A DNA stretch of 64,000 nucleotides. It comes from an uncultured Bacteroidales bacterium (GTDB taxonomy: Bacteria > Bacteroidota > Bacteroidia > Bacteroidales > UBA932). The translations under genes and the position numbers were made by a program. The first letter of the stretch is position 1. Each line of letters starts with the position of its first letter. Location of the stretch: NCBI GenBank assembly GCA_900321715.1, contig ONXC01000010.1, forward strand, positions 24,569 to 88,568, read 5' to 3'. Shown here one piece after another: positions 1 through 64,000 of this stretch. The notes below the pieces were generated by a model. The model made no database searches. It had not been told where the DNA came from and was given only the letters and a program-made list of their open reading frames with translations.

Positions 1-1536
1 GGCGTTGTTGGAGACAACCTTGGTGACGGTGATGTTCTCAAGGGATGAGATTTCAGTAAGGCGGGGCCATGCGGCGCCGTACTTCTTCTTGAGATTCCTG
101 AACCAGTCTATGGTGAATTCCGTGATATGCTCAAGGTGGTCCTTGACCTCCCTCATCTGGTCCTCGATAGCGTAAATCTTCTCATCCAGGGCCTTGGTGT
201 CAAACTTGGAGATCTTGCGCACCGGCTTTTCAACCAGTTTCAGGATGTCCTCCATCACGATGGGCCTGTGCAGGAGGTCCTGGTACTGGAGCATCTGGGA
301 CAGGATGTCCTGCAGCTGCTCTTCCCAGGTCTTCTGGTTCTGCTCCAGAACCTTGTAGATACGGTTTTCAAAGAAGATGCGCTCCAGGGAACTGTAATGC
401 CAGTCGTTCTCCAGTTCTCCAAGTTTCACCTCAAGTTCCGCCTTAAGGATGTCCCTTGTATGATAAGTGTCATACTCCAGGATCTCATCCACGGTAAGGA
501 ACACGGGCTTGTTCTCACGGATGACGCAGGCGTTGGGAGAGATTTTGGTCTCACACTCCGTAAAGGCATAGAGAGCGTCAATGGTCTTGTCGGGGGAGAC
601 ATCGGCCGGAAGATGGATGATAATCTCCACTTTGTCGGTGGTCATATCGTCAATCTTCTTGATGTTGATCTTCTTCTTCTCCTTGGCCTTGATAATGCTG
701 TCTATGATGCCCTGGGAGGTTTTTCCGTAGGGGATTTCAGTTATGGTGATGGTGCTCTTGTCCACTTTGTTGATGCGGGCGCGAACCTTTACCATACCTC
801 CGCGCTTGCCCTTGTTGTACTTTGAGCAGTCTGCGATGCCGCCGGTAGGGAAGTCCGGGAGAATCTCATAAGGCTCACCCTTCAGGATGGCGATGGAGGC
901 GTCTATGAGCTCGTTGAAATTGTGGGGCAGGATCTTGGAACTGAGACCGGCTGCAATGCCTTCAGTGCCTTGTGCAAGCAGCAGCGGGAAGCGCACTGGG
1001 AGTTCAGTTGGCTCCTGGTTACGGCCGTCGTAGGAAGTCATCCAGGGGGTTACCTTGGGATCAAAGACAACTTCCTTCGCAAACTTTGAGAGGCGGGCCT
1101 CAATGTAACGGGGCGCAGCATTGGAGTCTCCGGTAAGGATGTTACCCCAGTTACCCTGGCAGTCTATGAGGAGACCCTTCTGACCCAGCGTCACAAGGGC
1201 GCCAAGGATGGAGGCGTCTCCGTGGGGATGGTACTGCATGGCCTGGCCCACAATGTTGGCAACCTTTGTGTAGCGGCCGTCGTCCATTGTGGCCATAGTG
1301 TGCAGAACACGCCTCTGAACGGGCTTGAAGCCGTCTACGATGTGCGGCACGGCCCTGTCCAGGATGGTATATGAAGCGTAGTCCAGATACCACTCCTTGA
1401 ACATTCCGGAGAGCTTGTACTTGCGGCTGTCTCCGCCCAGGAGTTTATCAAATTTCCCGGACGCGGCAGCGTCTTCTCCAAGTTCCTCGTCTTCGTCTTC
1501 AGGTGCGTTTTTGATGTCGTCCCAATCGTCTGCCAT
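1..1536 (-). CDS. parC: DNA topoisomerase IV subunit A (ParC), 3' part beyond the window edge
   Basis: Breakage-reunion subunit of the type IIA topoisomerase that decatenates daughter chromosomes; it works as A2B2 with ParE. The visible 512 codons begin with an acidic N-terminal extension of about 25 residues. They continue with the winged-helix region around QRRVLH and the catalytic AAPRY motif, whose Tyr is near residue 144. The reading frame stays open to base 1, so the C-terminal part is off-window. The N-terminus and the LDDGRY-like segment (here MDDGRYTKVANIVG) resemble Bacteroidales ParC more than GyrA; assignment between the two is by family memory. It is the last visible gene of the exbB-tonB-rluB-era run, 10 nt after era. 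Confidence 0.93.
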   Translation of the reverse strand, partial: MADDWDDIKNAPEDEDEELGEDAAASGKFDKLLGGDSRKYKLSGMFKEWYLDYASYTILDRAVPHIVDGFKPVQRRVLHTMATMDDGRYTKVANIVGQAMQYHPHGDASILGALVTLGQKGLLIDCQGNWGNILTGDSNAAPRYIEARLSKFAKEVVFDPKVTPWMTSYDGRNQEPTELPVRFPLLLAQGTEGIAAGLSSKILPHNFNELIDASIAILKGEPYEILPDFPTGGIADCSKYNKGKRGGMVKVRARINKVDKSTITITEIPYGKTSQGIIDSIIKAKEKKKINIKKIDDMTTDKVEIIIHLPADVSPDKTIDALYAFTECETKISPNACVIRENKPVFLTVDEILEYDTYHTRDILKAELEVKLGELENDWHYSSLERIFFENRIYKVLEQNQKTWEEQLQDILSQMLQYQDLLHRPIVMEDILKLVEKPVRKISKFDTKALDEKIYAIEDQMREVKDHLEHITEFTIDWFRNLKKKYGAAWPRLTEISSLENITVTKVVSNNA

Positions 1537-1546
1537 AGGTTAAGCC

Positions 1547-2428
1547 TTAAAATTCATATCCAAACCGGCGGAGTTCCTTGCGGTCCTCCCTCCAGTCAGG
1601 GTCCACTTTTACAAATGTAGAGAGGAAGACCTTCTTCTGGAAGAAGTCCTCCATGTCTATGCGGGCCTCGGTGCCCACTTTCTTGAGCATGGCGCCTTTT
1701 TTGCCGATGATGATGCCCTTCTGGGACTCCCTCATAACATAGATTACGGCGCTTATCTCATAACGTTCCTCGCCTTCGTGGAAGGACTCTATCTCCACCT
1801 GGCAGCTATACGGAATCTCTTCCGAGTAGTTGAGGAAGATCTTCTCACGGATGATCTCCGATGCAAAGAAGCGGAGGTTCTTGTCCGTGAACTGGTCCTT
1901 GTCAAACCAGGCCGGGGCTTCCGGAAGCCTTGATGAAACGGCCTCCATGATGCTCTCAAGATTGAATTTCTCCTGGGCCGATGCCGGAATGACCTCTGCC
2001 TTGGGAAGCCTTTCCTTCCACCACTGCATGAGCTCCACCACCTTTTCCTGGGTGGAGAGATCAATCTTATTGAGCACAACCACAACGGGGCAGTCCACCT
2101 TGGAGAGCTTCTCAATGTATGCGTCGTTTTTATCGGCCTTCTCGACGGTGTCCGTCACGTAGAGGATAATATCGGCATCCCCTATTGCGGTGTCGACAAA
2201 CGAGAGCATGTTTTCCTGAAGCCTGTAGTTGGGCTTGAGGATGCCGGGGGTGTCGGAGTACACAATCTGGAAGTCTTCTCCGGAGACGATACCCATGATG
2301 CGGTAACGGGTGGTCTGGGCCTTTGCCGTCACAATTGAGAGCTTCTCACCCACAAGGGCGTTCATCAGCGTGGATTTGCCCACGTTGGGATTGCCGATGA
2401 TATTTACGAATCCTGCCCTGTGTGCCAT
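1547..2428 (-). CDS. era: GTPase Era
   Basis: Essential small GTPase that binds the 3' end of 16S rRNA and helps 30S subunit maturation. All G motifs are visible: the P-loop GNPNVGKS at residues 12-19, the DTPG motif near residue 59 and NKID near residue 119. A C-terminal KH domain (IIGKKGAMLKKVG) follows. At 293 aa it has the usual full length. Its ATG overlaps the rluB stop by 1 nt (TAATG), so translation is probably coupled to the upstream pseudouridine synthase gene, which also acts on ribosomal RNA. Confidence 0.97.
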   Translation of the reverse strand: MAHRAGFVNIIGNPNVGKSTLMNALVGEKLSIVTAKAQTTRYRIMGIVSGEDFQIVYSDTPGILKPNYRLQENMLSFVDTAIGDADIILYVTDTVEKADKNDAYIEKLSKVDCPVVVVLNKIDLSTQEKVVELMQWWKERLPKAEVIPASAQEKFNLESIMEAVSSRLPEAPAWFDKDQFTDKNLRFFASEIIREKIFLNYSEEIPYSCQVEIESFHEGEERYEISAVIYVMRESQKGIIIGKKGAMLKKVGTEARIDMEDFFQKKVFLSTFVKVDPDWREDRKELRRFGYEF

Positions 2429-8144: not shown

Positions 8145-10754
8145 CTATATAACTTCTACATCTGATGAGGGGAGCCAGCCCTGGCGGCCGTCGGCGAGTT
8201 CCACATTGGAGAAGCCGCCAACGTTGTCCAGGATGCGGACACGGGTGCCTTCGTGGAGGATGAAAAGGTCTTTTGCGCCTTCTGCGGCGGGGGAACTCTT
8301 GACGGAGGTCACGGGCCGCATCACAATGGCCTGGTCCTGGCGGAGGGCCTCGGTGCGCTGCCACTGGGCAAAATCCCAGCCAAGAAGCGCTACAAGAAGG
8401 AACGCAATACCCAAAAAGAAGCCAAGTTTACGCCTTCCCTGAGTGCTTCCAAGGAGGAAAAGCAGCACGCATGCAACCATTAGCGCAAAGCTCATAAGGC
8501 CTATCACAGCCCAGGCATTAGACGGCAGAAGGTAGCATATGGATCGGCCCCACTGCTCAAAGAAAATCTCCGGAACCTCATCTATGCGGTCCTGGGTGAG
8601 GGCGCGGGCATAATCCAGATTATACCTTACATCGGCATCAGAAGGGTCAAGCCTCAGGGCCCTTTCGTACCACAGGATAGCCGGGGCAATTTCCCCGCTC
8701 TTGAAATGGGCGTTTCCAAGGTTGTAGTACAGTTCCTTGGACATAAGGCCGGTGGCGCGGACATCTTCAAAGTCCTGAAGGGCCTTTGCATAGTCTCCTG
8801 CAGTATATGCTTCTATGCCGGAGTGCCAGAGGGAATCGGGGTAGGATTCAGCTGCCTTGGCACCGAACGGAATCAGAAGCAGGAGGGCAACAACGGCGGC
8901 GCCTGCCCCCGAAGAAGGTCTTTTCTTCATGGAAGAATCTATGGCCGTGATAAGGGAGACGGCCTGCTCATAATGTTTATTCATTGCATCGTGGCCGGCG
9001 CTGGGGGAGTAGCGGGCTTCCTCGCAGGCGGCAAGAAGGCCGGTAAAGTCATCGGCCACGCTCTGGGCCACACCGCCGGAAACAAGAGCTTCCGCTATGT
9101 TCTCCTTGTTTTGATCGGCCATATCCATAGCAAGTTTGTCGCCAACAAAGCCAAGGAGGGAGCGGTGAAGTTCCTCGTAGAAGGCCGTGTAGAGGTCCTT
9201 CCCAAGGAAGTCGTGGGCCTGGGCAAGGCGCTTCATCGCCTGCTTGGTGGCCTTGCGGTTACGGGAACCCACAATGTCTGCCCTTCGGGCGGCAACCTTA
9301 CGGAAGCCAAGCCAGAAGCCGCAGCCGGCAAGAAGCAGGAACACAAGGATTCCCCACCAGGCCTTTGAGTATACCAGGAAGCCGTTATCGGCCGATAAAT
9401 CCGTCTTTGTGCGAATGAAACGGATGTCCTCACCAAGGTTCTTGACACCCTTGCGGTCCACTACCAGAGTATTTCCTCCGGTGCTTTCCGGTGCCACGGA
9501 AGTTGCGGAACGGGCTACGGAAATGGGCAGCGCAGCCGATGAGACGGTCTCATACCTCCTGGCGTTGACATCGTAGTAAGAGAACTGCACGGGGCCCATG
9601 GTGAAGTCTCCGGGACTTCTTGGGATGAACGGGTATTCGAAGGTCTTGGAGCCGGAAGTTCCGCTCTTATCCGTGTTTACGCTTGTCTTGACGTCATACA
9701 CCTCAAAATCCGGCGGGAAGGCAATCTTGGGGGCCTCCACAAGGGCAATGTTACCCTTTCCGGTTACGGTCACAATGAGCGATGCTGCATCGTGGGTCTT
9801 GAGGGAATCCTTGCTCACGCGGGCGCTGACCTTGAACTGACCCACGCCGCCTGAAAAGCTTGCCGGAGCACCGGCCGGTAGGGCCGATACATGCAGCGAC
9901 CGCGCCGGAGTAGTAACCCTCTGGCGGGTGGTGACGTAGCCTGTCCCAAAGAAATCGTCAAACGGGGAGCCGGAGCTGCGGGGACGGCGGACATTCACCA
10001 GGCACACCACCTCTGCGGGCTCTATGGGCTGATCTCCGGACTTCTGGGGGATGATTATCCAGCGGCGAAGAACCGCGCTGTTGTACATCACGCCGTCCAC
10101 TTGTTCACGCTGGAACTCTATGTTTGAAGGTGCCTCCACTTCCTGGCTCCAGAAGCCCTTGAAGGAAGGGAACTTTGCGTTTTCAAAGCCTGCGAGGTTG
10201 GCCCTGTGGTAGATTTTTAGGGTGGCCGTGACGGGCTCTCCCACAACCACTGAATTGCGGCTGAGGGACAGTCTCATGAATATGTCGGAATCTCCGCGTG
10301 AGACCTGCTGGGTGTCGTCACGCGCGGCCTGACCGGGCGTCTGCTGGGATGAACCCTGCTGGGAGCCGCTTCCGCTGCCCACAACCTGAATCTGGACGGC
10401 CTTTGACTGGATCTGGGAGCCCTTTATGCGGGCAGTTGCCGGAGGCAGCGTGAAGGTTCCGGTCTTACGCGCCTGAAGGATGTAGGTGTAGGTGGTCTGG
10501 GATGTGCGGGTGGTTTTGCCGTTAATGATCTGGATGCTTGTGGAAGAGCCCTTCTGGGGGCCCCACACCACGGTGAAATCGTCTCCGGCTTCCCATTGGA
10601 AGTCACTGGGGGAGTTCTCTCCCTCCACCACGAAACCCACATTGAACCTTTCCTGAAGCTCAACTATATTGTGAACTTCCACGCGTATTGACGGCTGCGC
10701 CCACGCGGCAATGGCCACGAGGGCAGCGGCTATGATGCTTACAATCCTTTTCAT
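8145..10754 (-). CDS. BatD-BatE fusion protein (aerotolerance operon)
   Basis: Two Bat proteins in one 869-aa frame. Residues 1-608 are BatD: a signal peptide (to about residue 19), Ig-like oxygen-tolerance domains, a membrane helix near 470-490 and a cytoplasmic tail. Residues 609-869 are BatE: MKKRPSSG plus a hydrophobic stretch that looks like a retained signal peptide, TPR repeats around 635-715 (YYNLGNAHFKSGEIAPAILW), two membrane helices and a terminal SH3-like domain. The internal Met609 is at 8928-8930 and may still be used as a start. Last gene of the moxR-bat operon; Bat proteins are thought to help envelope integrity under oxidative stress. Confidence 0.86.
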   Translation of the reverse strand: MKRIVSIIAAALVAIAAWAQPSIRVEVHNIVELQERFNVGFVVEGENSPSDFQWEAGDDFTVVWGPQKGSSTSIQIINGKTTRTSQTTYTYILQARKTGTFTLPPATARIKGSQIQSKAVQIQVVGSGSGSQQGSSQQTPGQAARDDTQQVSRGDSDIFMRLSLSRNSVVVGEPVTATLKIYHRANLAGFENAKFPSFKGFWSQEVEAPSNIEFQREQVDGVMYNSAVLRRWIIIPQKSGDQPIEPAEVVCLVNVRRPRSSGSPFDDFFGTGYVTTRQRVTTPARSLHVSALPAGAPASFSGGVGQFKVSARVSKDSLKTHDAASLIVTVTGKGNIALVEAPKIAFPPDFEVYDVKTSVNTDKSGTSGSKTFEYPFIPRSPGDFTMGPVQFSYYDVNARRYETVSSAALPISVARSATSVAPESTGGNTLVVDRKGVKNLGEDIRFIRTKTDLSADNGFLVYSKAWWGILVFLLLAGCGFWLGFRKVAARRADIVGSRNRKATKQAMKRLAQAHDFLGKDLYTAFYEELHRSLLGFVGDKLAMDMADQNKENIAEALVSGGVAQSVADDFTGLLAACEEARYSPSAGHDAMNKHYEQAVSLITAIDSSMKKRPSSGAGAAVVALLLLIPFGAKAAESYPDSLWHSGIEAYTAGDYAKALQDFEDVRATGLMSKELYYNLGNAHFKSGEIAPAILWYERALRLDPSDADVRYNLDYARALTQDRIDEVPEIFFEQWGRSICYLLPSNAWAVIGLMSFALMVACVLLFLLGSTQGRRKLGFFLGIAFLLVALLGWDFAQWQRTEALRQDQAIVMRPVTSVKSSPAAEGAKDLFILHEGTRVRILDNVGGFSNVELADGRQGWLPSSDVEVI

Positions 10755-41119: not shown

Positions 41120-41150
41120 CAAATATAGCATTTTCCCCTCACCTTAGCAA
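41120..41150 (-). promoter_or_regulatory. Promoter of the asnS operon
   Basis: Read on the minus strand: TTG (41150-41148), a 20-nt spacer, then -7 box TATATTTG (41127-41120). The -33 element lies within the T-run of the preceding gene's terminator, so the two signals share bases. Confidence 0.75.
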
Positions 41151-41181
41151 AAAAAACAGCCTCCCGGCGATGGGAGGCTGT
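41149..41181 (-). terminator. Terminator of the riboside-utilisation operon
   Basis: Perfect 10-bp stem (ACAGCCTCCC at 41156-41165 with GGGAGGCTGT at 41172-41181 on the plus strand) followed on the minus strand by eight T. Follows the stop at 41201 and ends the long run of genes that begins with rbsK. Confidence 0.9.
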
Positions 41182-41200
41182 GAAATGGAAGTGTGAGATC

Positions 41201-42079: not shown

Positions 42080-42100
42080 AATGGTTTAATAATTAAAGGG

Positions 42101-48469: not shown

Positions 48470-48471
48470 AA

Positions 48472-50022
48472 TCAATATCCGGGATTCTGGGGATTAAGAT
48501 TGGGGTTAGCGCTGCGCTTGTCCTCAGGAATAGGAAGGAGGATGTGTCCGGGATCTGAATCGGCCGGTTTTGCCCACCAGGCTTCCAGATACTTGTCAAA
48601 GCGTACAAGGTCGTTATGGACCCAGCCTTCAAGGGCCATCTCTTTCTGGCGCTCCTCAAAGAAGCTGTCCAGATTGAGGTCTGCTGCGGCGATGGGAGCA
48701 AGACCCGCACGGGTGCGGATTTGCTGGAATTCGGGAACAGCTGCAGCATCAACTGCCTTGTTATCACGAAGGAGGCACTCTACATACATCAGAACAACAT
48801 CGGCATAACGCATCAGGATGAAGTCGTTCTCCATATCCACGCTGTAGGAGGTGAGGCTGCCGTCTGTCTGATAGGGCCACTTGATGAAACGGGCGCCTTC
48901 CATACGGTCAAGACCTCTTCCGAAGTGATCTTCAGGAATGGGGGTGTCAAGAAGGCTGTATGGAAGTTTGATGGGTTTGCCTTGGGCATCAAGGTCGTCA
49001 ACCATCACTCGCTGGCCGTTTGAATCGTAGATGTCTCCAAATAACCAAGTGTCGGTTTTACGTGTGTCATTGGCATCATATCTGGCCATAAAGTCAGGTT
49101 GTCCCATATGGGTGCCGTTCCACGTGCCTGCGGTGATGTTGTAGGCGGGGAAAATATCCTCGTTCAGGGTGAGAACAAAAGGATAGAAGGTATGGGAAGT
49201 ATAAATACTGCTATAGGGTATAGCAAGAATGGCTTCTGTTGAACCTTCGTTATGTATTGCAAAGTTCTGTGCGTAAGTAGGCGTCAGATGGAAGTGACCG
49301 CTGTTCATAATAGCTTCGCACTGCTCCTTTGCCTTTGCCCATTGTTCCGTTCCGGTGTAAACCTTTGCGTTGAGATAAAGTTTTGCCAGCATAAAACGGG
49401 CGACATCCTGCGTTACACGGCCGTATGTCTTGGTCGTGGGAGTGTCTTCCAGAAATTCCAGATTTGTTAGCAACTCCTGCTCCATCCAAGTGTACATCTC
49501 TGAACGGGATTTTACCTCTGGAAGGGTTGTAACGGTTTTGTCGATGGAGAACGGAACTTTGCCCCAGAGGTCAACAGCCATAAAATAGTAGTAAACCCTC
49601 AGAACCTTGCACTCTGCGATATTCTGTTTTACCATCGGGCTTTGTTCAAGCTTCTCAAGCTCATAAATTGCATCGTTACAGGCCGATATTCCGTTGAAGC
49701 AGAAATCCCAGCCGGTTCCGACAAGTTTATTGCTGGTGGTGATGTTATGGGTCTGGAGTTCAGTATAACGGGCTTCGCCCCAGTGCTTGTCATACGATTT
49801 GGGGACGGCGAGTTCATTGCCTAACTGAAGGACAAGAGTCCAATAACTCTGCTCTTCTCCCCAGTTCTGCAATTTGGTATAGGGACGGGAGGTATACTGA
49901 GCGATGACCTCGTCGTGCTTCATAAACTCTTCCTTGGAGATCTGGGAATAGAGTTGCTCGTCCAGGTTGGTGCAGGCGGTCATTGCCAGCACTGCAAATG
50001 CTATGGTGACAATCTTTTTCAT
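48472..50022 (-). CDS. susD: SusD/RagB-family nutrient-binding lipoprotein
   Basis: 516 aa surface lipoprotein forming the lid of the SusC channel. Lipobox MTAC (Cys17), helical TPR-like body with SWYFNG-type segments (GISACNDAIYELEKL, LRVYYYFMAVDLWGKVPF), and the C-terminal ERQKEMALEGWVHNDLVRF motif. 4 nt downstream of susC. Ligand not predictable; neighbours suggest nucleosides or ADP-ribosides. Confidence 0.94.
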   Translation of the reverse strand: MKKIVTIAFAVLAMTACTNLDEQLYSQISKEEFMKHDEVIAQYTSRPYTKLQNWGEEQSYWTLVLQLGNELAVPKSYDKHWGEARYTELQTHNITTSNKLVGTGWDFCFNGISACNDAIYELEKLEQSPMVKQNIAECKVLRVYYYFMAVDLWGKVPFSIDKTVTTLPEVKSRSEMYTWMEQELLTNLEFLEDTPTTKTYGRVTQDVARFMLAKLYLNAKVYTGTEQWAKAKEQCEAIMNSGHFHLTPTYAQNFAIHNEGSTEAILAIPYSSIYTSHTFYPFVLTLNEDIFPAYNITAGTWNGTHMGQPDFMARYDANDTRKTDTWLFGDIYDSNGQRVMVDDLDAQGKPIKLPYSLLDTPIPEDHFGRGLDRMEGARFIKWPYQTDGSLTSYSVDMENDFILMRYADVVLMYVECLLRDNKAVDAAAVPEFQQIRTRAGLAPIAAADLNLDSFFEERQKEMALEGWVHNDLVRFDKYLEAWWAKPADSDPGHILLPIPEDKRSANPNLNPQNPGY

Positions 50023-50026
50023 ACTC

Positions 50027-52927
50027 TTAGAACTTTACGGTGGCACCAAGGGTGAACATACGGGTGCGGGGATAATAGCTTGTTCCCTCGATACCCGGGG
50101 TAAGGCCGGAAAGCTGAACTTCGGGGTCTACGCCGGTGTAACCGGTGATGCAAAGCAGGTTCTGTCCTACCAGATATACGCGTATCCCCTTTACGAATCT
50201 GTTTTTCCAGGGAACATCATACGAGAAGGTGACATTGTCAAGTTTTACGTATGTGGCGTCTTCAAGAGTACGGCTGGAATATACCACCTTTCCGGTGTAT
50301 TCCGTATAATTGAGCCAGGAAGCCAGGACGTTCTTTACGCCCATCTCAGAGATATTCTCATACAGGGCCCTGAGCTGGTTGAAGGCCTTGCCTCCAAAGG
50401 AGCCGCGGATGGTGGCGCTGAGAGAGAAAGGACCGTAAGTGAGAGTATTGCTCCAGCCAAGGGTGAAGTCCGGGTATGCAGATCCAAGATTTACCCATTC
50501 GTTCTGGTCAATATTCTTGAGCTTCTGGTTACCGTCTCCGGAGAACTTGGTGAAGAGTGGTCCGTAGAAGGTACCGATGCTTTCTCCTTCAATAAGCCTC
50601 TGGCAGTTTGCTCCAAGAGGAGTGTTGAGCCAGCCGATGCGGTATTCCTGTCCCTGGAACTCCTCATTGGTGAAGGAGATGAGTTTGTTGCGGTTCATTG
50701 AGAACACGATGGAGGTGTTCCAGGTGAAGTTTTTGGTCTTCACGGGATCACCCCACAGGGTAATTTCCAAACCGGTGTTGGAGATAGCTCCCACGTTGGT
50801 GAAGTACTTCTCATAATCGTACGGAGGAACAGGAACCTTATAGTTGTAAAGAAGGTTGCTGGTGAGGCGGTAGTAGTAATCTATGGTGCCGCCTGCGCGC
50901 CCGTTAAGGAATGAGAAGTCCAGACCTACGTTCCATTCGCTCTTCTTCTCCCACTGGAGATCAGGGTTGGCGTTGCTTGATGGAGCGTATGAGTTGGACC
51001 ACTTGCCGTCATAGTAGAAATATCCGACGGGCTCTACCCTCAGGATAGACTTGTAGTTGGCAAAATCCTGGTTGCCGGTCATACCAAAGCCGGCGCGGAG
51101 CTTGAGCTCGTCTATCCAGGTGATATTCTTCATAAAAGGCTCTTCAGTGATGCGCCAGCCAAGGCTTACGGCGGGGAAGAGGGCCCACTTGTTGTTTACG
51201 CCAAAACGTGAAGAACCGTCGTAACGCAGGGAGACGGAAGCCATATACTTTTCGGCATAATTGTACATTACGCGGCCGAAGAATGCGATGTAGCGGCTTC
51301 CCTCACGGTTGGAAGACATATCTGCCTTGCCGTCCTTGATGGCGCTACCGGCACCCATATTGTTGGTTTGGAAATAGTCCAGGTCAAATCCGTAGTTGGA
51401 CATATAGTTGCTGCGGGAACTAAGTTCCTGGAAAGCATAGCCGGCAACGGCCTGGACGTGATGGTTTCCAAACACGTTACTGTACTGGAGAGTACTTTCA
51501 AACTGGATGTCGCTGTCAAGCTCGTTGGAAATCTCTGCGATACCTTTCTTTCCACTCTCTCCGGGATAATTCCTGGTGCGGTAATCTCGGTTTTCATAGC
51601 GTTCTACGCTGTAGCTCACAAAGTTGTCCCATTTGAGGCCCTTCACCGGGAGAATATTGAGGGTAGCACGGCCGTTTACGCCGATGTCGTCAATCTCAGT
51701 GTTGGAGTCGCGCTCGTTGAGCATTGCCACAGGGTTGTAGTAATCCATTGACTCGCTTTGGGTGAAATAACCTCCTCTGCCATTCTCGTCATATACCGGT
51801 TCAGTGGGGTTGTGAAAGAAGGCCTGACGGAAAATGCCCATACGGGCGCCCTTGTACTGACGCTTTACATAGTTTAGGTTAACGTCAAAATTGAGCCAGC
51901 CCTCAAGGGCTTCCTGACGGATATTGCTCTTGATGAGGTATTTGTTGGCATCGTTCTTCTTGAGGATACCCTGGTTCTGCTCCACATTGATGACAGTACG
52001 GTGGCTGAATTTGTCTGAGCCGCCGGATATTGCCAGGTTGTGCTTGTGGCTAACCGGAGTACGGGTGACTTCCTTGAACCAGTCGGTATCATATCCATAA
52101 AGTTTATTCTTATTGGCGGGCAGATACTCGTTGATGGTATTGGTAAACTGCTCGGCATTCATAGGTACGGCCCTTGAGCGCACGGTTTGTACGGTAACCT
52201 GGCCGTCATATTCCACATTGGTGTGGCCCGCGCGTGCGCGCTTTGTAGTAATAATGATAACGCCGTTGGTGCCGCGGGTACCGTAGATGGCGGCTGCGGA
52301 ACCATCTTTCAGGACGTCGATTGACTCAACCTCCTGGAAGTTGATGCTGCGGATATCGGCACCCACTACACCGTCAATGATGATGAGCGGGCCCTGGCCT
52401 GCGCTGAGGGTGTTGGTGCCTCGGAGCAGGATTTCGTAGGATGCGGTGGGGTCTCCGCCGTTGGGGTTGGTGACGCTGAGGCCGGCCACCTTGCCCTGGA
52501 GCATACCCGCTGCCGATGTGAATGAACCCTTGTCAAAGTCTTCGGCCTTTAGGCTTACCACTGATCCGGTGACTTCCTTCTTGGTGGTGGTGCCGTAACC
52601 GATGGCTACGGACTCTTTAAGCAGAGTGGCCTCTGAAGGGTTTAACTGGATATTGTACTGTGTAGCGTCACCCACGGTGAAACTACCGTCGTCATAACCT
52701 AGATAGGAAACTGTTACCACAGCTCCGCTTTTGGCGCTCACGGAAAAGGCTCCGTCTACGTCTGTGATTGCGTAGGCGTTTGTCCCGCTTACAACCAAGG
52801 TTGCGCCAGGGAGGGCGTCACCTCGCTCGTCTGTGACCTTTCCCGTCACAGTTTTTGTCTGTGCGAAAGCTGCAACCCCGATAAGCATCAGGGCGGCAGC
52901 TGTAAGGAATTTATGTATATTACTCAT
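50027..52927 (-). CDS. susC: SusC/RagA-family TonB-dependent outer-membrane transporter
   Basis: 966 aa. Signal peptide, N-terminal carboxypeptidase-like domain (about 24-105, GKVTDERGDALPGATLVV), plug with LLRGTNTLSAGQGPLIIIDG and GSAAAIYGTRGTNGVIIITTK, then a 22-strand barrel ending TLGATVKF. Works with SusD and with TonB/ExbBD. The gene contains none of the GGCCGAT heptamers that dot the rest of the window. Confidence 0.96.
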   Translation of the reverse strand: MSNIHKFLTAAALMLIGVAAFAQTKTVTGKVTDERGDALPGATLVVSGTNAYAITDVDGAFSVSAKSGAVVTVSYLGYDDGSFTVGDATQYNIQLNPSEATLLKESVAIGYGTTTKKEVTGSVVSLKAEDFDKGSFTSAAGMLQGKVAGLSVTNPNGGDPTASYEILLRGTNTLSAGQGPLIIIDGVVGADIRSINFQEVESIDVLKDGSAAAIYGTRGTNGVIIITTKRARAGHTNVEYDGQVTVQTVRSRAVPMNAEQFTNTINEYLPANKNKLYGYDTDWFKEVTRTPVSHKHNLAISGGSDKFSHRTVINVEQNQGILKKNDANKYLIKSNIRQEALEGWLNFDVNLNYVKRQYKGARMGIFRQAFFHNPTEPVYDENGRGGYFTQSESMDYYNPVAMLNERDSNTEIDDIGVNGRATLNILPVKGLKWDNFVSYSVERYENRDYRTRNYPGESGKKGIAEISNELDSDIQFESTLQYSNVFGNHHVQAVAGYAFQELSSRSNYMSNYGFDLDYFQTNNMGAGSAIKDGKADMSSNREGSRYIAFFGRVMYNYAEKYMASVSLRYDGSSRFGVNNKWALFPAVSLGWRITEEPFMKNITWIDELKLRAGFGMTGNQDFANYKSILRVEPVGYFYYDGKWSNSYAPSSNANPDLQWEKKSEWNVGLDFSFLNGRAGGTIDYYYRLTSNLLYNYKVPVPPYDYEKYFTNVGAISNTGLEITLWGDPVKTKNFTWNTSIVFSMNRNKLISFTNEEFQGQEYRIGWLNTPLGANCQRLIEGESIGTFYGPLFTKFSGDGNQKLKNIDQNEWVNLGSAYPDFTLGWSNTLTYGPFSLSATIRGSFGGKAFNQLRALYENISEMGVKNVLASWLNYTEYTGKVVYSSRTLEDATYVKLDNVTFSYDVPWKNRFVKGIRVYLVGQNLLCITGYTGVDPEVQLSGLTPGIEGTSYYPRTRMFTLGATVKF

Positions 52928-55016: not shown

Positions 55017-56030
55017 ATGGGCCACAAAAACACACTCCTTACCGTTTCGGAACAAACCGGATACTCTGTATCGACGGTTTCAAGGGTGCTTTCAGGCAAG
55101 GCGCGTAAATATAGGATCAGCAGGGAAGCGGAAGAAAAGATTACGGCCGAGGCTGAAAGGCTTAACTATCAGCCCAATCTCATTGCACAGACCCTGAGGA
55201 CCCAGCAGTCAAAGACTATCGGCCTTCTTATTCCCTCCGTGGATAATCCTTTCTTTGCTACGCTTTCCGGTATTATTATAGGTATTCTAAACGCCAAGGG
55301 CTATCATACCCTTCTGGCCGATTCCCGTGAGTCCGGGAAGGATGAGATCCAGGAACTCAGGATGTTCATGAGCCGCAGCGTTGACGGAATTATCTGTATA
55401 CCGGCATCATCTACGCCGGATTTCCATGAGCAGGTGAGTTCCCAAATCCCTATGGTGCTTGTAGACCGTCACTTTAAGAGTACCTCACTGTCTTATGTCT
55501 GTACGGATAATTACGCGGGAGCCAGAATGGCTACAGAGTACCTTCTGAGCAAAGGGTATAAGAGCATCCTGGCCATTCAGGGCGTACCGGATTCAATGCC
55601 CAACAGGGAGCGTGTAAGGGGATTCAAGGATGCAATAGGCGTTCACGGAGTGGCGTATAGTGTGGTAGGAGACGCTTTTTCCGTGGAGAACGGCAAGAGG
55701 GAAGTGCTGAACGCTTTTTCTGGCGCTCAGAAACAATTTGATTCCGTGTTTGCATTCAGTTCAACTATCCTCCTCGGGGCAATTGATTCTCTGAGGCGTC
55801 TTGGACTCAGGCCGGGGAAGGATGTGGGTATTATTTCTTATGACAACAACGGCTTCCTGGATTTTATGGATCCAGCCGTCACAAGGGTGGAGCAGCCTCT
55901 GAGGGAAGCCGGTCAGATTGCCGTAGATACATTGTTTGAGATCATGGGCGCCCGCCGTGCCGGTCATCCGGATCCTCCCTCACGCCAGATCCTGATTCCA
56001 CCTACGCTGGTGGTCCGCGGGAGCTGCTGA
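55017..56030 (+). CDS. LacI-family transcriptional regulator of the riboside locus
   Basis: 337 aa. N-terminal helix-turn-helix LTVSEQTGYSVSTVSRVLSG (residues 8-27) and hinge LNYQPNLIAQTLRTQQS. The sugar-binding core has IGLLIPSVDNPFFA and ends VTRVEQPLREAGQIAVDTL. Divergent from rbsK across a 142-nt gap that carries the operator. Probably senses ribose or a phosphorylated derivative. The 3' end overlaps a convergent gene by 51 nt. Confidence 0.93.
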   Translation: MGHKNTLLTVSEQTGYSVSTVSRVLSGKARKYRISREAEEKITAEAERLNYQPNLIAQTLRTQQSKTIGLLIPSVDNPFFATLSGIIIGILNAKGYHTLLADSRESGKDEIQELRMFMSRSVDGIICIPASSTPDFHEQVSSQIPMVLVDRHFKSTSLSYVCTDNYAGARMATEYLLSKGYKSILAIQGVPDSMPNRERVRGFKDAIGVHGVAYSVVGDAFSVENGKREVLNAFSGAQKQFDSVFAFSSTILLGAIDSLRRLGLRPGKDVGIISYDNNGFLDFMDPAVTRVEQPLREAGQIAVDTLFEIMGARRAGHPDPPSRQILIPPTLVVRGSC

Positions 56031-56468
56031 CAGCATTGCAAGGTAAATCTCCCGTTTGTCACGGTCCGTGTTTTTGAGAAGCTGGATGAGCTGGCTCCTT
56101 CTTGCGCTTACTCTTTTACCGGAACTCAGGTTTGAGAACCTGGCGGTCAGATAATCCGGAAAACCTGCTGCACTATAGCAGAAGATTGCGATATCCTCTT
56201 TGATCAGGTACGGGAAGTCATTTTTTAGTGCTCCAAGGATGCCGTCCATTTGCTTGTCCAGCTCTCTTTGGAGATGTCCTGTACTCCGGTAACTGCCAAA
56301 GCGCCGGACGCATAGTGCAGAATAGATATTCATCAAATTTTTCGGGATCACAAGAACACCTGAATCAATATCTTTCAGAAGAATAGTGAGGATAAGACCT
56401 GCGAAGTAGTATCTGCTGCGGAAACGGTGCAGATTTTCTAGCATTTGTTTAGTTTGGGAATTGTTCAT
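55980..56468 (-). CDS. Small helical protein of unknown function
   Basis: About 162 aa from the ATG at 56468 (MNNSQTKQMLENLHRF). Predicted mostly helical; the C-terminal stretch with IAIFCYSAAGFPDYLTARF...RKSRL-like pattern (here RVSARRSQLIQLL) recalls the tail region of Bacteroidetes regulator/sensor proteins, but I cannot name a family. It converges on the LacI gene and overlaps it by 51 nt, so its C-terminus is coded antisense to LacI. A -7 box and a palindrome precede it. Confidence 0.5.
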   Translation of the reverse strand: MNNSQTKQMLENLHRFRSRYYFAGLILTILLKDIDSGVLVIPKNLMNIYSALCVRRFGSYRSTGHLQRELDKQMDGILGALKNDFPYLIKEDIAIFCYSAAGFPDYLTARFSNLSSGKRVSARRSQLIQLLKNTDRDKREIYLAMLSAAPADHQRRWNQDLA

Positions 56469-56497
56469 TTTTGCGGAAAAATTAGGCCGCAAAAATA
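56468..56497 (-). promoter_or_regulatory. Palindrome overlapping a -7 box before the small helical protein
   Basis: TTTTTGCGG (56468-56476) and CCGCAAAAA (56487-56495) form perfect 9-bp arms with a 10-nt gap. The distal arm overlaps a -7 box TATTTTTG (56497-56490 on the minus strand) and the proximal arm touches the ATG. Possible autoregulatory operator. The rest of the gap to 56681 shows nothing I can support. Confidence 0.4.
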
Positions 56498-56681
56498 GAT
56501 TTGCCCATAAAGATAAGGAAAAATGGACGTGCTTATTTCGTCCCTCGGTAAGTCCCTGAGATTTAGTAAATTGTCTGGTTGTGTCAAACTGTTATATCCT
56601 AAAAACCCTACTACAATCCCTTCTGAGGCCGTTTTTGTTGGGACAAAAAATGCACGGAACACGTCATTTGTAGGTGAAAAA

Positions 56682-56711
56682 ACAGAGGGTGGCCATTTGG
56701 CCACCCTCTGT
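56682..56711 (-). terminator. Terminator of the second exbB-exbD operon
   Basis: 14-bp perfect stem (56682-56695 with 56698-56711, containing GGGTGGCCA/TGGCCACCC) with a 2-nt gap at its centre, followed on the minus strand by a run of six T. Lies 21 nt after the stop at 56733. Confidence 0.9.
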
Positions 56712-56732
56712 GAAAATAGCGATGTAAGACCC

Positions 56733-57206
56733 TTAGTCTTTGGCCGGCTTACGCGCGGCGTACATGATCTTAAGGGCGGAGCAGCGACGCAGCTCCTGTT
56801 TTACATCGGAAACGATACCCATACGGACATCCTGGTCTACCCTGAGGTTTACGGTCATGAGGGACCTCTCAGCTTCTGACATGGCATCACGCTCTGCAGC
56901 GATGAAGTCACGGATGTCGGACACTGTTTTGAAAGAGTCGTTGAGCTGGATACGGGCGTCGGTACCGTACATTGCCTGATACTGCAGGGTGGGGCTACCG
57001 ATGTTGATATTGGCGCTCAGGTCTTTTCTCTCCAGTTTAGCTACCTCTGATGCAACGGGCATGGTGACTTTCACCTTTTGCTCGGTTTCACGCATCTGGG
57101 TGGTAACCATGAAGAAGAACAGGAGCATGAACACGATATCGGAGAGGGAGTTGGACGATGCCTGGGGGACTTCCTTCTTATTACTGGAACTTCCGAATTT
57201 TGACAT
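56733..57206 (-). CDS. ExbD/TolR-like protein (second set)
   Basis: 157 aa. Single membrane helix with the essential Asp in SNSLSDIVFMLLFFFMV near residue 23, then a periplasmic domain with VNLRVDQDVRMGIVSDVKQEL. Last gene of a four-gene unit with a second ExbD-like protein, a small membrane protein and an ExbB. Confidence 0.88.
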   Translation of the reverse strand: MSKFGSSSNKKEVPQASSNSLSDIVFMLLFFFMVTTQMRETEQKVKVTMPVASEVAKLERKDLSANINIGSPTLQYQAMYGTDARIQLNDSFKTVSDIRDFIAAERDAMSEAERSLMTVNLRVDQDVRMGIVSDVKQELRRCSALKIMYAARKPAKD

Positions 57207-57218
57207 AACTTTTACCTC

Positions 57219-57785
57219 CTATTTTTTACCGGTATCCTTAGGCTCTGCTTCAGAAATATTCTGAGGTACGGCCTTCTTTACTATATCCTGCTGTTCCTCG
57301 GAGAGGCGGGAGAACTTCTTGCCGAATTCCCTGTAGGCGAAATCGTCTCTCAGTTCGTTGACGGCTTTCACCAACTCATTCTGTACTGCAATATATGCCT
57401 GGTAACTGGTACCACGGTCATTCTGCAGGGAAATGACGCCCTTGGAAACGTTGTAGGTTTTGCCTTCGATTTCCTTGGGTTCCTTTTCAGGAAGGTTGGG
57501 GTCATTTGAAGGGTTGGTGAGGAACTCCTTGATCTTGTCTTTCAGCATTGAGATGTCCATGGCTTCGCTACCGGCAAACAGTTTATCGGCAGAGTTGATT
57601 CTGACGATGATGATGTTACGGCGGTTCACCTTCTGGTCCTGGGCCTGCTGGGCATCCGGGATGGGGGGAAGGCGGCGCTGCAAGCCGGACTGGTCTCCCA
57701 TGGTTGTAGTCATGAGGAAGTAGCACAGCAGCAGGAACGCGATATCAGCCGTGGAACCGATTGCTTGGAAATTTCTTCTTGCCAT
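57219..57785 (-). CDS. ExbD/TolR-like protein, longer form
   Basis: 188 aa. Membrane helix with Asp in GSTADIAFLLLCYFLMTT near residue 14, then a periplasmic domain with an insertion (about 85-120) before VISLQNDRGTSYQAYIAVQNEL. Forms a tandem pair with the shorter ExbD downstream (12-nt gap); such two-ExbD sets are common in Bacteroidetes and may power TonB or another envelope motor. Confidence 0.88.
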   Translation of the reverse strand: MARRNFQAIGSTADIAFLLLCYFLMTTTMGDQSGLQRRLPPIPDAQQAQDQKVNRRNIIIVRINSADKLFAGSEAMDISMLKDKIKEFLTNPSNDPNLPEKEPKEIEGKTYNVSKGVISLQNDRGTSYQAYIAVQNELVKAVNELRDDFAYREFGKKFSRLSEEQQDIVKKAVPQNISEAEPKDTGKK

Positions 57786-57793
57786 GGTTTACT

Positions 57794-58240
57794 TTACTTT
57801 TTGTTGCGTATGGTCATCCAGACCTCACCGAAGATGATGGAAAGGATTGCTACTCCACCAACGAGGTATGCGAGGTTGAGGATGGTGTCGGTCATCTTGA
57901 GTTCAGAGGCGCTGGGCAGTTTGGCACCAGAATATCCCACGGCGGGTGCACCGGATGCCACAAGGTAGCAGAGGCCGAACAGTACGGCTGCGGCTACGAG
58001 GGCGATACCGATTTTAATGAGACCCTTGGGATTTGTGGTGGCAGTTACATAAAGGCCCACGCAAATCACGGAAACAAGAGCGATTCCAAGGACGATGTAT
58101 GCCCAGCCCAGAAGGACGTTGGTGGCAGCACCGTCATTGGCCTCGAATCCCGTCAAAGACCCCCAGACCAGGACGCCGATGCTCAGGATCATGAGGACCC
58201 AGAGAACAATCTTGATTATTTTAGCGTATTTCTGGTTCAT
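57794..58240 (-). CDS. Four-helix membrane protein in the exbB-exbD operon
   Basis: 148 aa, four hydrophobic segments (about 10-26, 42-65, 75-93, 120-140). I do not recognise a named family, but a small polytopic protein at this position between exbB and exbD genes is recurrent in Bacteroidales. Probably an accessory of the motor complex. Gaps of 8 nt and 24 nt to its neighbours. Confidence 0.72.
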   Translation of the reverse strand: MNQKYAKIIKIVLWVLMILSIGVLVWGSLTGFEANDGAATNVLLGWAYIVLGIALVSVICVGLYVTATTNPKGLIKIGIALVAAAVLFGLCYLVASGAPAVGYSGAKLPSASELKMTDTILNLAYLVGGVAILSIIFGEVWMTIRNKK

Positions 58241-58264
58241 TTTTCTGGTATTAAAGGGGTTTGA

Positions 58265-59056
58265 CTACTTCTTGTTGTATTTAACCATGGTGTCCACGAA
58301 GCGGATGGAAGAGTCTTCCATATCGATGGACAGGGAGTCGATCTTTGCGATGATGTAGTTGTAGAAGATCTGGAGAATCATAGCTACGATGAGACCGCCC
58401 ACAGTGGTGATGAGGGCCACCTTCATACCGCCGGCAACAACGTTAGGTGAGATATCACCTGCAGCCTGGATGGCGTCGAAGGCCTGGATCATACCGATAA
58501 CGGTACCAAGGAATCCCAGTGAAGGAGCGATGGAAATGAATAGGCCGATCCAGCTGAGACCGTTCTCCATGAGGCTCATCTGAACGCCGCCGTAGGAGAC
58601 GATGGTCTTTTCAACTACGTCGATACCCTGGTCTGCGCGGAGGAGACCCTGGTAGAAGATGCTGGCCACAGGACCGCGGGTTTCACGGCAAACCTTCTTG
58701 GCTTCTTCGATACCGCCTTTTTCAAGAGCAGCCTCCACGTTCTCGAGGAGCTTGGTGGTGTTGGTCTTGGAGAAAGCAAGATAGAGGATACGCTCGATAG
58801 CAAGAGCCATACCCAGAATCAGGCAGATGATGATGAGGGACATGAAGCCTGCGCCACCCTCGATGAACTTGGTCTTGAGGGCCTGGTGTAGAGGAACTTC
58901 TTCTCCGGAACCGGCAAACAGGTCTACGACCTCTTCGGCCTCTTCGACCTGTTCCTGAGCGGCGACGGGAGCGTTAGCCTCGTCCTGGGCGGAAGCGATG
59001 GAAGCAGTGAAGGTCACGAGACCGGCTACTGCCAAAAACATGAAAAACTTTTTCAT
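58265..59056 (-). CDS. MotA/TolQ/ExbB protein with signal peptide and acidic spacer
   Basis: 263 aa. An N-terminal signal-like segment (ending SIASAQ near residue 23) and an acidic stretch precede the three ExbB helices: MSLIIICLILGMALAIERI, IGLFISIAPSLGFLGTVIGM and VALITTVGGLIVAMILQI. First gene of the second motor operon. The 96-nt gap upstream (59057-59152) has no promoter I can defend. Confidence 0.9.
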   Translation of the reverse strand: MKKFFMFLAVAGLVTFTASIASAQDEANAPVAAQEQVEEAEEVVDLFAGSGEEVPLHQALKTKFIEGGAGFMSLIIICLILGMALAIERILYLAFSKTNTTKLLENVEAALEKGGIEEAKKVCRETRGPVASIFYQGLLRADQGIDVVEKTIVSYGGVQMSLMENGLSWIGLFISIAPSLGFLGTVIGMIQAFDAIQAAGDISPNVVAGGMKVALITTVGGLIVAMILQIFYNYIIAKIDSLSIDMEDSSIRFVDTMVKYNKK

Positions 59057-59152
59057 AATCGTTTTTGAGTTGTTAATTATAAGTTGAATTAGTTTGTAGT
59101 ATTTTCACTTTTGCCCGGCAATTTAGTCATTTTTCTTGAAAACGCCAAAGAT

Positions 59153-60178
59153 TTATGCCGTTATTTCTCCGCAAATGTCTTTTTCCAGCATCTCTTTTAC
59201 CCACTGGTTGTTGTCTGAGCACCCCATAAGGTAGAACAGTTTTCCAAGGGCTGCCTCGGTGGTTATGTCCATCCCGGAGAGCACTCCGCAGTTCTTGAGA
59301 GTTGCGCCGGTGGCATACAGATTCATGTTCACAGTGCCGGATTTACACTGGGTTACGTTAAGAAGGATCTTGCCCAGGTGGTCGGCCTCCCTTATTATAT
59401 CAAGAAACCAGTCCTTTGAGATGGCGTTGCCGGAACCGTATGTTTCAAGGATACATGCGCGGATTTCAGGGGCGCAGAGAGAGTGGCGCGCCACAGCCGG
59501 GGTGATTCCGGGATGAATCTTCAGGATGGACACCCTGCAGTCAAGGTGGGTCTGGACTTTAAGGGTATGGGCCGATGGCTTCCGTATTATGTCGGAGTTG
59601 TAGCGGATGTTGATACCGGCCTGGGCCAGCGGCGGAAGGTTGGGGGATGCGAAGGCGTTGAAGGCCTCTGCGCTGTATTTTGTCGAGCGGTTGCCGCGAA
59701 GGAGCCTGGAATCGAAGAAAATGGCTACCTCCGGTACCTCGGCGCTGCCATCGGCCTTCTTTGCCGATGCTATCTCTACCGCCGCGATGAGGTTTTCCTT
59801 GCCATCCGTGCGGGGGACGCCTATTGGAAGCTGGCTTCCGGTGAAGATGACAGGCTTTGAGAGACCTTCCAGCATGAAACTCAGGGCCGATGCACTGTAG
59901 GCCATGGTGTCCGTGCCGTGAAGGATCACGAAGCCGTCGTAGTCGTCATACCTTTCGTGGATGAGCTCTGCAAGGTTCACCCAGAGGGCGGGCTCCACGT
60001 CCGAGGAGTCAATCAGGGGATTGAAGGTGTAGGAGTCTATCCTCACCTGGAACTTGTTCAGCTCCGGGACCTCCTCCTTGATCTGGGAGAAGTCAAAGGG
60101 CTTGAGGGTCCCGTCCTGGGGGTCCTCCTTCATGCCGATGGTGCCGCCTGTGTAAATGACTAATACTGCCGATTTCAT
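59153..60178 (-). CDS. ansA: Type I L-asparaginase
   Basis: 341 aa cytoplasmic-type asparaginase hydrolysing Asn to Asp and ammonia. Active-site threonines in VIYTGGTIGM (residue 12 region) and VILHGTDTMAYSASAL (near 88). No signal peptide. Stop-start overlap of 4 nt with tatD upstream. Confidence 0.93.
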   Translation of the reverse strand: MKSAVLVIYTGGTIGMKEDPQDGTLKPFDFSQIKEEVPELNKFQVRIDSYTFNPLIDSSDVEPALWVNLAELIHERYDDYDGFVILHGTDTMAYSASALSFMLEGLSKPVIFTGSQLPIGVPRTDGKENLIAAVEIASAKKADGSAEVPEVAIFFDSRLLRGNRSTKYSAEAFNAFASPNLPPLAQAGINIRYNSDIIRKPSAHTLKVQTHLDCRVSILKIHPGITPAVARHSLCAPEIRACILETYGSGNAISKDWFLDIIREADHLGKILLNVTQCKSGTVNMNLYATGATLKNCGVLSGMDITTEAALGKLFYLMGCSDNNQWVKEMLEKDICGEITA

Positions 60179-62733: not shown

Positions 62734-62736
62734 GGC

Positions 62737-63645
62737 TCATGGCTTTTTGATGGCCTTTTTGACATCTTCCCGGTCAAGGCCGATAACCCTTGCCAGTTGA
62801 TTCACCGTAGTCTTGCGGGTGCGCCACAGGTAGGGGAGGATTCGCTTTTTCTTTTCGGTCGTGAGTTGGCCGATATCCGTTTTGAACCAGCGGTCTACTA
62901 TATCGGCCACAACCTTGTAAAACTCACTGTCCGGCAGTATACGCCTTGGAGCCTCCACCAGAGTTTCCTCCATCTCGGCGGTGTTGACGCCCCCGACCAT
63001 CCTGAGCCAGAAAGCCTGGTCATGGTTAAAGACCTGTTCCAAATAGTCAACGTCGCAGAACGATTCTGGAATCAGTTCCCCATAGCCGTCAACCTCCCAT
63101 TTCACATCTTTAAGGTCTTCACGTGAATGCATTATCCTGTCCTGCTCCCTGCGAGTGTACTTGTTTACGGGGATTCCGCCGGTCTTTTTGCCGGAAAACA
63201 TGGCTCTGTAGCCGCTCCATCGGTAAGTGTCGATGGGACTCCCGTTATCGGCCGCATTGCGGGGGATGTAGGCCAGAGCATTTCTCACATAGGAATCGTT
63301 GTCCAGAAGGATAGCCTGGACGTCTACATTTTTCAGCAGTTTTTTCTCCCGATACTTGGTATGTATCCACTGGGCGTATATACGCTTCAATTCTTCAGCG
63401 AATTCGCATGCTTCTACATACGATTTGGCAAGTACGGCAATATGGCAATGGTTAGATACGGCGGCATAGATGATAACAATGACATTCTTGCGGTGGGAGC
63501 AGATGGCGATGTATTTGACAAGTACACCGTAGTCCTCCTCATCACGGCAGAGTATGGCTGTTTTAAGCCCCTTCATGCTTATGTGATAAGGCTGGACATT
63601 GGCTTGTTCGCCGGAGGGGAGTGTGCGAAGAACGATTCTTTTCAT
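62737..63645 (-). CDS. REP-associated tyrosine transposase (RAYT, Y1/HUH type)
   Basis: 302 aa from the ATG at 63645 (an ATG four codons earlier at 63657 is also open). HUH motif NHCHIAV (His70 and His72 in the longer frame), catalytic Tyr130 in LAYIPRN, and the RAYT-typical YRWSGYRAMF. C-terminal helix-turn-helix-like region (TTVNQLARVIGLDREDVKKAI). Such enzymes nick single-stranded REP hairpins. It is flanked on both sides by arrays of GGACCAGGTCC. The gene contains four GGCCGAT heptamers, so it has probably been in this genome for a long time. Confidence 0.88.
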   Translation of the reverse strand: MKRIVLRTLPSGEQANVQPYHISMKGLKTAILCRDEEDYGVLVKYIAICSHRKNVIVIIYAAVSNHCHIAVLAKSYVEACEFAEELKRIYAQWIHTKYREKKLLKNVDVQAILLDNDSYVRNALAYIPRNAADNGSPIDTYRWSGYRAMFSGKKTGGIPVNKYTRREQDRIMHSREDLKDVKWEVDGYGELIPESFCDVDYLEQVFNHDQAFWLRMVGGVNTAEMEETLVEAPRRILPDSEFYKVVADIVDRWFKTDIGQLTTEKKKRILPYLWRTRKTTVNQLARVIGLDREDVKKAIKKP

Positions 63646-63657
63646 AGGCGTATTCAA

Positions 63658-64000
63658 TTAGTTGCTTGATTATATGATTGTTAAAGAGGATTATTATTTT
63701 ATGGGTGGTGGACCTGGTCCACGAAGGCCTTGGACCAGGTCCAGGGGGAATTTGGCCGAGGTGTGGCTGATTTTTGGCCTTGGTGTGGCCGATATTTGGC
63801 CGCGGTGTGATTCTGTGTGGTGGACCAGGTCCACCGAGTGTGGCTCTGGGGTACTTGTGGGGCATGGTGGCTGGACCAGGTCCAAGGGGTGAAATGGCAC
63901 CACGTCCAAAAAGTGGCTGGACCAGGTCCGCGAAGGCCCTGGACCAGGTCCACTGTGTATAGTCCAACGTACTTGCAACGTACTTGAATGGCATAGAGCC
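63658..64000. repeat. Right REP array; otherwise non-coding to the window edge
   Basis: Strong copies of GGACC(A/T)GGTCC start at 63710, 63732, 63822, 63873, 63919 and 63941. Weaker GGCC..GGTGT copies start at 63754, 63776 and 63798, and a degenerate one at 63897. Steps are 22, 22, 22, 22, 24, 51, 24, 22, 22 nt. 63658-63709 is AT-rich and probably contains the RAYT promoter. After the array a direct repeat CAACGTACTTG occurs twice (63964-63985). Open frames here are repeat-coded (WTRS, GPGP words) and not credible genes. Confidence 0.82.

Follow-up and report, generated by a model that had tools for sequence, protein, structure and literature searches.

KGCCGAT, a dense and strand-symmetric signature in an uncultured Bacteroidales bacterium and its relatives, tentatively likened to DNA uptake sequences

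The heptamer GGCCGAT, with its complement ATCGGCC, is about ten-fold over-represented on both strands of a 64,000-nucleotide stretch of DNA (the window) from an uncultured Bacteroidales bacterium of the GTDB lineage UBA932 (contig ONXC01000010.1 of assembly GCA_900321715.1, positions 24,569 to 88,568). An earlier note, made from the letters of the window, had described this enrichment with a count of 113 (56 + 57), which was about right, the exact number being 114, with 57 on each strand. Dinucleotide shuffling of the window (n = 100) gave a mean of 10.4 copies (standard deviation (sd) 3.0, maximum 18), and its coding DNA holds 109 copies against 14.2 (sd 3.4, maximum 23, n = 200) when synonymous codons are exchanged among genes with every protein and the codon use preserved. 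Markov models with the heptamer masked predicted 9.5, 6.6 and 8.1 copies at orders 1, 2 and 3, and the observed/expected ratio near 1 that the earlier note had named as speaking against its claim was found under none of these codon- and dinucleotide-aware models. Chance, GC content and codon use were rejected as the cause of the excess by the two kinds of shuffle.

The enrichment extends over the whole genome of the window (G000, 2.04 Mb), in which 3279 heptamers (1662 on the plus and 1617 on the minus strand), one per 624 bases, stand against 226 copies (100 and 126) of the reversed word used as a control. Density ranged from 1.30 to 2.35 per kb across 17 stretches of G000, namely the window and the further stretches L082-L097; L081 was included in one sample of 395,351 bases and is absent from the later G000 analyses (375,351 bases). 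The reversed-word control inflates enrichment in some relatives, as in G003, with 1571 raw heptamers, yet 6 against 8.8 by codon shuffle in a small sample of 19,023 coding bases, and raw counts against the reversed word were therefore rejected as unreliable proof in relatives.

All six classes of reading frame and orientation are enriched in the window and the 16 further stretches (observed/expected 117/34.5, 9/1.0, 193/4.3, 29/0.9, 7/3.4 and 261/33.4), giving 616 heptamers against about 77 expected in 352,590 coding bases, and the gaps between genes (14.7 kb) carry 19 against 1.4, which bears out the earlier remark that copies lie in genes of both directions and in some gaps. Coding copies comprise 297 sense and 319 antisense, strand use is homogeneous over the 17 stretches (chi-square p = 0.99; open contigs, no closed chromosome), and adjacent heptamers share their orientation in 277 of 631 pairs. 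Since all six frames and the gaps are enriched without strand bias, the word acts at the level of DNA and constitutes a strand-symmetric, iterated signature, as first read. A codon-pair or translation effect, which would suit the concentration of most copies in three reading frames (Ala-Asp, Ser-Ala and Ile-Gly), is scarcely credible, as the copies in gaps and in antisense largely refute it, and the 8-fold excess over shuffles that preserve protein and codon use also speaks against it. A polar site resembling Chi or the FtsK-orienting polar sequences (KOPS) would share the length and genome-wide occurrence of the heptamer, but strand polarity was not seen within the open contigs, where the earlier argument from the lack of strand bias holds, and the even split of the window together with the mixed orientation of neighbours makes such a site highly improbable.

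The unit itself is not a palindrome. The palindrome ATCGGCCGAT had been noted at three places in the window, all of which exist, although two of the quoted starts (9384 and 24060) were off by 3 and 1; as the unit it was rejected, because it accounts for only 11 of the 631 pairs of neighbouring copies in the G000 sample. The bases flanking the heptamer are nearly unconstrained, and a mobile repeat as its source was rejected for the same lack of conservation. Among the 21 one-letter neighbours, clear enrichment was confined to TGCCGAT (3.0-fold in G000 against 1.6-fold in pooled low-motif genomes) and GGCCGAA (1.7-fold against 1.2-fold), with several others modestly above 1 and no excess in their sum (1093 against 1168 expected in G000). 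KGCCGAT, with G favoured over T, is therefore the better statement of the word, as TGCCGAT is enriched as well. Spacing is near random (coefficient of variation 1.03 over 631 gaps). In G000, 28 of the 37 adjacent pairs spaced 7-59 bases have inverted orientation (p = 0.003), an excess absent from 20 other loci (23 of 39 pairs, p = 0.34), so that inverted pairing is not established.

How strongly the word is maintained can be read from synonymous codons, whose choice in G000 depends sharply on the neighbouring base. For Ala-Asp, GCC-GAT is used in 261/317 cases when G precedes and in 104/149 when T precedes, against 13/109 with C and 6/43 with A in that place; for Ser-Ala, TCG-GCC makes up 193/277 cases with a preceding A against 5/201 with a preceding C, and for Ile-Gly, ATC-GGC makes up 117/149 before C against 32/169 before G. 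The corresponding figures in G077, a genome without the heptamer, are 12/56 after G, 16/79 after C, 16/36 after T and 0/16 after A for GCC-GAT, and 2/23 for TCG-GCC after A. Opportunities with the fitting flanking base are filled in 461 of 588 cases (78%) in G000, a conditional share, as the flanking base is often free itself; when all synonymous changes are permitted in the three main frames, filling amounts to about half (571/1153, 50%) compared with 29/289 (10%) in G077. The heptamer also shapes codon use: in the G000 sample it contains 34% of the TCG serine codons (193/567), against 2 of 238 in G077. The filled positions allow the force on each site to be put into numbers: if selection is responsible, the contrast from 82% to 12% corresponds by our own calculation to about 2Nes = 3.4 per site.

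Occupancy hardly varies with the distance to the nearest other copy. With opportunities less than 2500 bases from the stretch ends excluded, it was 0.68 below 50 bases (36/53) and 425/535 otherwise, lying between 0.76 and 0.83 for distances of 50-1600 bases (Spearman p = 0.18); the two opportunities more than 1600 bases from any copy were both empty, and with 6, 7 and 8 copies within 1 kb the values were 0.73, 0.60 and 0.57 (n = 44, 20 and 7). The near-flat occupancy indicates that the force on the heptamer works largely site by site, and a density-dependent need, such as one site per fragment, was unsupported. Such behaviour would suit an intracellular chromosome protein, for instance a nucleoid, segregation or repair factor, that binds KGCCGAT with a benefit rising with each bound site, so that weak selection of the strength given above would fill the permitted positions while CGA elsewhere would be removed as a decoy. 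Random spacing, the density and strand symmetry of the sites and the avoidance of the CGA core outside the word in the strongest genomes are all compatible with this proposal; nevertheless we consider it somewhat unlikely, for a chromosome protein that binds a sharply defined 7-base site once per 0.6 kb is not known to us, no candidate gene was found, and decoy removal is only loosely tied to the motif, CGA avoidance being weak (0.81-0.82) in the motif-bearing G063 and G066.

Outside KGCCGAT, CGA/TCG occurs in the G000 sample at 0.42 and TCGA at 0.22 of the codon-shuffle expectation, and among the 64 words of the form XXXCGAT only GGCCGAT (7.96) and TGCCGAT (3.00) exceed 1. The avoidance is present on both strands of coding DNA and weaker in gaps (0.62 in G000 against 0.75-0.91 in groups without the heptamer, with 0.55 to 1.05 in motif-bearing groups). 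It is seen to a varying degree in many relatives, and is strong in L035 and L036, which have hardly any heptamer signal. Across 72 loci, 8 of 80 having been excluded as shorter than 9000 bases, it correlates with heptamer strength (Spearman -0.71), yet this link is lost in tree-aware pairing (5 independent pairs, with CGA moving in the same direction in 0.9 on average), and CGA avoidance may for this reason be a separate trait that meets the heptamer in this lineage. Directional repair or gene conversion, in which a nuclease or mismatch-correction enzyme would favour KGCCGAT and disfavour other CGA, leaving the heptamer as a functionless by-product, would explain why many CGA-bearing neighbours are depleted (GACCGAT 4 against 31.5, GGTCGAT 8 against 43.8) with the heptamer 8-fold up, why only two XXXCGAT words are in excess and why filling proceeds mostly site by site. 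It is unlikely all the same: CGA lost at fourfold sites is replaced by A and G rather than T, which leaves deamination unsupported as the cause, the protein-changing neighbours without CGA are not depleted (GGCCCAT 1.41, GGCCTAT 0.97, GGCCAAT 0.82), and the dialects described below would need a changing enzyme, whereas no enzyme was identified.

A comparison with sister species, proposed in the earlier note, found the heptamer largely shared across a clade of rumen Bacteroidales. A search with metG returned 80 loci, nearly all from metagenome-assembled genomes of rumen Bacteroidales, which we take to belong to the GTDB genus Cryptobacteroides, and overlapping loci were thinned before word counts and codon-context assays. 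On a quick FastTree phylogeny of metG (75 rows, 68 with a motif state) most members of a large clade carry the heptamer, with 5 state changes over the 68 scored rows. Nested within the tree, the rows L069 and L070 lack the signal, and the codon-context assay agrees with this lack, Ala-Asp being encoded as GCC-GAT in 3 of 27 cases after G and 7 of 41 after C when these loci are pooled with L041 and two small loci. Among 18 further genomes sampled from the same genus, GGCCGAT was prominent in G028 and weakly so in G005, and no comparable word was prominent in the other 16. In G053, from another family of the same order, raw counts of GGCCGAT were 240 + 234 against 16 + 18 for the reversed word.

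The word also changes by single letters. One branch further out than the closest sisters of the window stands L068. It belongs to G061, which contains 3128 copies of GGCCGAA against 582 of the reversed-word control beside 1702 of GGCCGAT against 217; codon context is altered accordingly, Ala-Glu being GCC-GAA in 53/60 cases with G in front and Ser-Ala being TCG-GCC in 49/61 cases with T in front. GGCCGAA is raised less strongly elsewhere, for example in G099, the home of L015 (2126 against 709). The shift took place partly at the same sites: when 39 window sites were aligned to L068, 7 were kept, 11 had become GGCCGAA by one change, 5 showed another single change and 16 several differences, while the closer sisters L001 and L037 each kept 31 of 40 window sites, with similar control words kept at 0.65 and 0.70. 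In G066 and its kin T and G are used equally at position 1. The more distant G080 (L073, L133-L136, L227-L232 and small loci) favours KGTCTAT, which seems to be either a remote dialect or a signature of separate origin. There TGTCTATG stands at 52 against 8.9 expected, and GTC-TAT is the choice for Val-Tyr after T (46/57) and after G (29/41), though it is frequent after C as well (16/25). GTCGATG, a possible dialect in L043-L048 and kin, is enriched only 2-3-fold. G086 (L065, L153, L220-L226) bears another signature, CATATG, a palindrome whose flanks matter little; its coding DNA holds 101 copies of GCATATG where 17 are expected, with all six frames represented.

The density had also been compared with that of the cyanobacterial highly iterated palindrome HIP1. 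According to excerpts of PMC4390886, HIP1 and alternate HIPs accompany cognate methyltransferases and occur about once per 1000 bases, with other words in some relatives; the heptamer is likewise highly iterated at a similar density, and a HIP1-like signature linked to methylation of KGCCGAT would find a candidate enzyme in a 927-aa type IIG restriction-methylation protein of G000 (G000:C20:114809-117589). Enzymes of type IIG have asymmetric sites of 6-7 bases. HIPs are palindromes, however, which the heptamer is not, and none of the five methyltransferase families searched tracks it. Pfam searches took in 22 to 24 genomes (G065, G068 and G074 left out), among them a motif-rich class of 13 by our own classification (G000, G028, G061-G064, G066, G067 and G069-G073), and each of the five methyltransferase families exceeded its cut-off in at most 6 of these: PF00145 in 4/11 (G071 and G072 left out), PF01555 in 1/13, PF02384 in 4/13, PF07669 in 6/13 and PF02086 in 2/13. 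At E up to 0.001 PF07669 matched in 11 of 13 motif-rich genomes, many of the matches being weak ones to frames of about 300-340 aa, and such frames were also found in G016 and G077, both without the heptamer; the motif-rich G062 matched none of the five families, each single absence being weakened by the incompleteness of the genomes. Among 31 genomes the type IIG enzyme turned up in 9, in some of them only in fragments. Four of the 9 belong to the motif-rich 13, and two others, G091 and G092, are the source of L069 and L070, loci with no heptamer signal. A link to methylation is accordingly quite unlikely, and of the two comparisons made in the earlier note the one with uptake sequences is the better, resting on asymmetry and one-letter dialects, whereas that with HIP1 is disfavoured. 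Homologues of the type IIG enzyme in G091 and G079 share 75-82% identity in the N-terminal half and 50-55% in the C-terminal half, a pattern as would be expected if the specificity part varies.

Uptake signal sequences (USS) of Pasteurellaceae are short asymmetric words found on both strands at about one per kb, and in these respects the heptamer resembles them. The DNA uptake sequences (DUS) of Neisseriaceae are alike in being asymmetric words on both strands with thousands of copies, one-letter dialects and a distribution that follows a clade, and all of these are found here, far above codon-aware chance and with single-letter dialects between related species (G061). They are unlike in having 10-12 letters instead of seven, and in that the CGA core is avoided elsewhere in the genome here. 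To our knowledge uptake-type signatures come only from Neisseriaceae and Pasteurellaceae, and HIPs only from cyanobacteria. Excerpts of PMC3630211 describe two one-letter DUS dialects co-occurring in the genome of Simonsiella muelleri, which has its parallel in G061. For Haemophilus influenzae, excerpts of PMC5217627 give about 1300 USS copies, whose pairs are often terminators, whereas inverted pairing of the heptamer is not established, and an excerpt of PMC12616744 predicts that USS are read by a type IV minor pilin. Searches of the open-licence literature returned no report of GGCCGAT as a printed word, nor of such a signature where uptake sequences are treated together with Bacteroidales or Bacteroidetes.

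On balance, KGCCGAT is tentatively read, at clearly less than an even chance, as a genome-wide self signature recognized by a sequence-specific DNA-binding factor and working like a DNA uptake sequence. Uptake sequences are the closest match for a word that is asymmetric and unpolarized between strands, varies in dialects of one letter, switches in place, follows a clade and is missing from a nested subclade. The candidate reader would be a DNA receptor at the cell surface or in the periplasm that works without type IV pili, passes DNA on to ComEC and prefers short fragments bearing KGCCGAT; transformation would copy such fragments into the genome, and each copy would be favoured individually until a large part of the protein-permitted places is occupied. 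A change of receptor would produce a new dialect (KGCCGAT to KGCCGAW), and its loss would let the signature decay. Excerpts of PMC8459023 describe transformation in Riemerella, another member of the Bacteroidota, with ComEC, DprA, ComF, RecA and proteins of unassigned function, which makes uptake independent of type IV pili plausible in these hosts as well.

Several observations weigh against this proposal. Of the competence genes that the earlier note had suggested looking for, a ComEC domain match occurs in 24 of 25 genomes searched, but it is equally present in genomes without the heptamer and does not discriminate, and a stop codon falls inside the matched stretch in 16 of 25 rows (in G000, the only genome for which its position was established, at the very end of the match). 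PF00437, the family of ATPases that serve type II secretion and type IV pili, exceeded its cut-off in 1 of 24 genomes, namely G016, which has no heptamer, with matches of only about 18-21 bits, under the cut-off, in 21 others; this differs from the Neisseriaceae and speaks against a reader of the ComP type, which is disfavoured for the heptamer, although the search for pilus machinery covered this ATPase family and not pilins. No uptake was observed and no receptor found. Heptamer sites show no clear gain in conservation over similar words: they are kept at 0.75-0.78 against 0.64-0.70 relative to L001, L037 and L003, at 0.73 against 0.79 relative to L002, and at 0.32 and 0.39 against 0.35 and 0.43 relative to the distant motif-bearing L078 and L014, a pattern showing that individual sites are exchanged over time while the signature as a whole persists. 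Uptake of fragments predicts diminishing returns, whereas occupancy is nearly flat with distance, and uptake therefore fits only with short fragments of about 100 bases. The avoidance of CGA elsewhere is not predicted by uptake either, and an intracellular process that acts on one site at a time would account for both features no less well, which is why confidence in uptake stays limited.

The features of the window are collected in the table below, in which the bin 40001..44000 possibly represents DNA of more recent acquisition. Another palindrome, GGACCWGGTCC, was observed at 12 places of the window (22074-22084, 60696-60706 and 62558-63951), 10 of them within 62.5-64.0 kb and in part as tandem units of about 22 bases. 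Among the relatives, tandem units of 51-63 bases with inverted-repeat ends were seen at L005:1215-1403, L005:3656-3842, L020:3158-3310 and L020:7052-7519, most of those in L005 enclosing ATCGGCC or GGCCGAA; CRISPR arrays were rejected for both loci in favour of such hairpin-like repeats.

Table. Positions of heptamer-related features in the window
Feature	Position	Strand	Remarks
Heptamer GGCCGAT/ATCGGCC, 114 copies	1..64000	both (57 + / 57 -)	spread across the window, mostly genic in both directions, few in gaps
Overlapping inverted pair ATCGGCCGAT	9387..9396		exact word search
Overlapping inverted pair ATCGGCCGAT	24061..24070		exact word search
Overlapping inverted pair ATCGGCCGAT	32771..32780		exact word search
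Heptamer-poor bin, 3 copies, CGA relatively frequent	40001..44000		bin counts
Heptamer-poor bin, 3 copies, includes part of a SusC-type receptor gene	48001..52000		bin counts
Heptamer-poor bin, 4 copies, top CGA share of the window (0.207)	56001..60000		bin counts

Natural contrasts for finding the gene responsible come from the signature-free subclade and from the shift of dialect. It is possible, if somewhat short of an even chance, that these Bacteroidota possess a self-recognition code whose reader is unrelated to type IV pilins and to known DNA methyltransferase families, in which the heptamer occupies about half of its synonymous opportunities, CGA is purged from other contexts and dialects such as KGCCGAW (G061) and KGTCTAT (G080) have formed. 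A dense, dialect-forming signature in a group where the pilus-type ATPase appears in a single genome of 24 and none of five methyltransferase families follows the word would mean a new reader.

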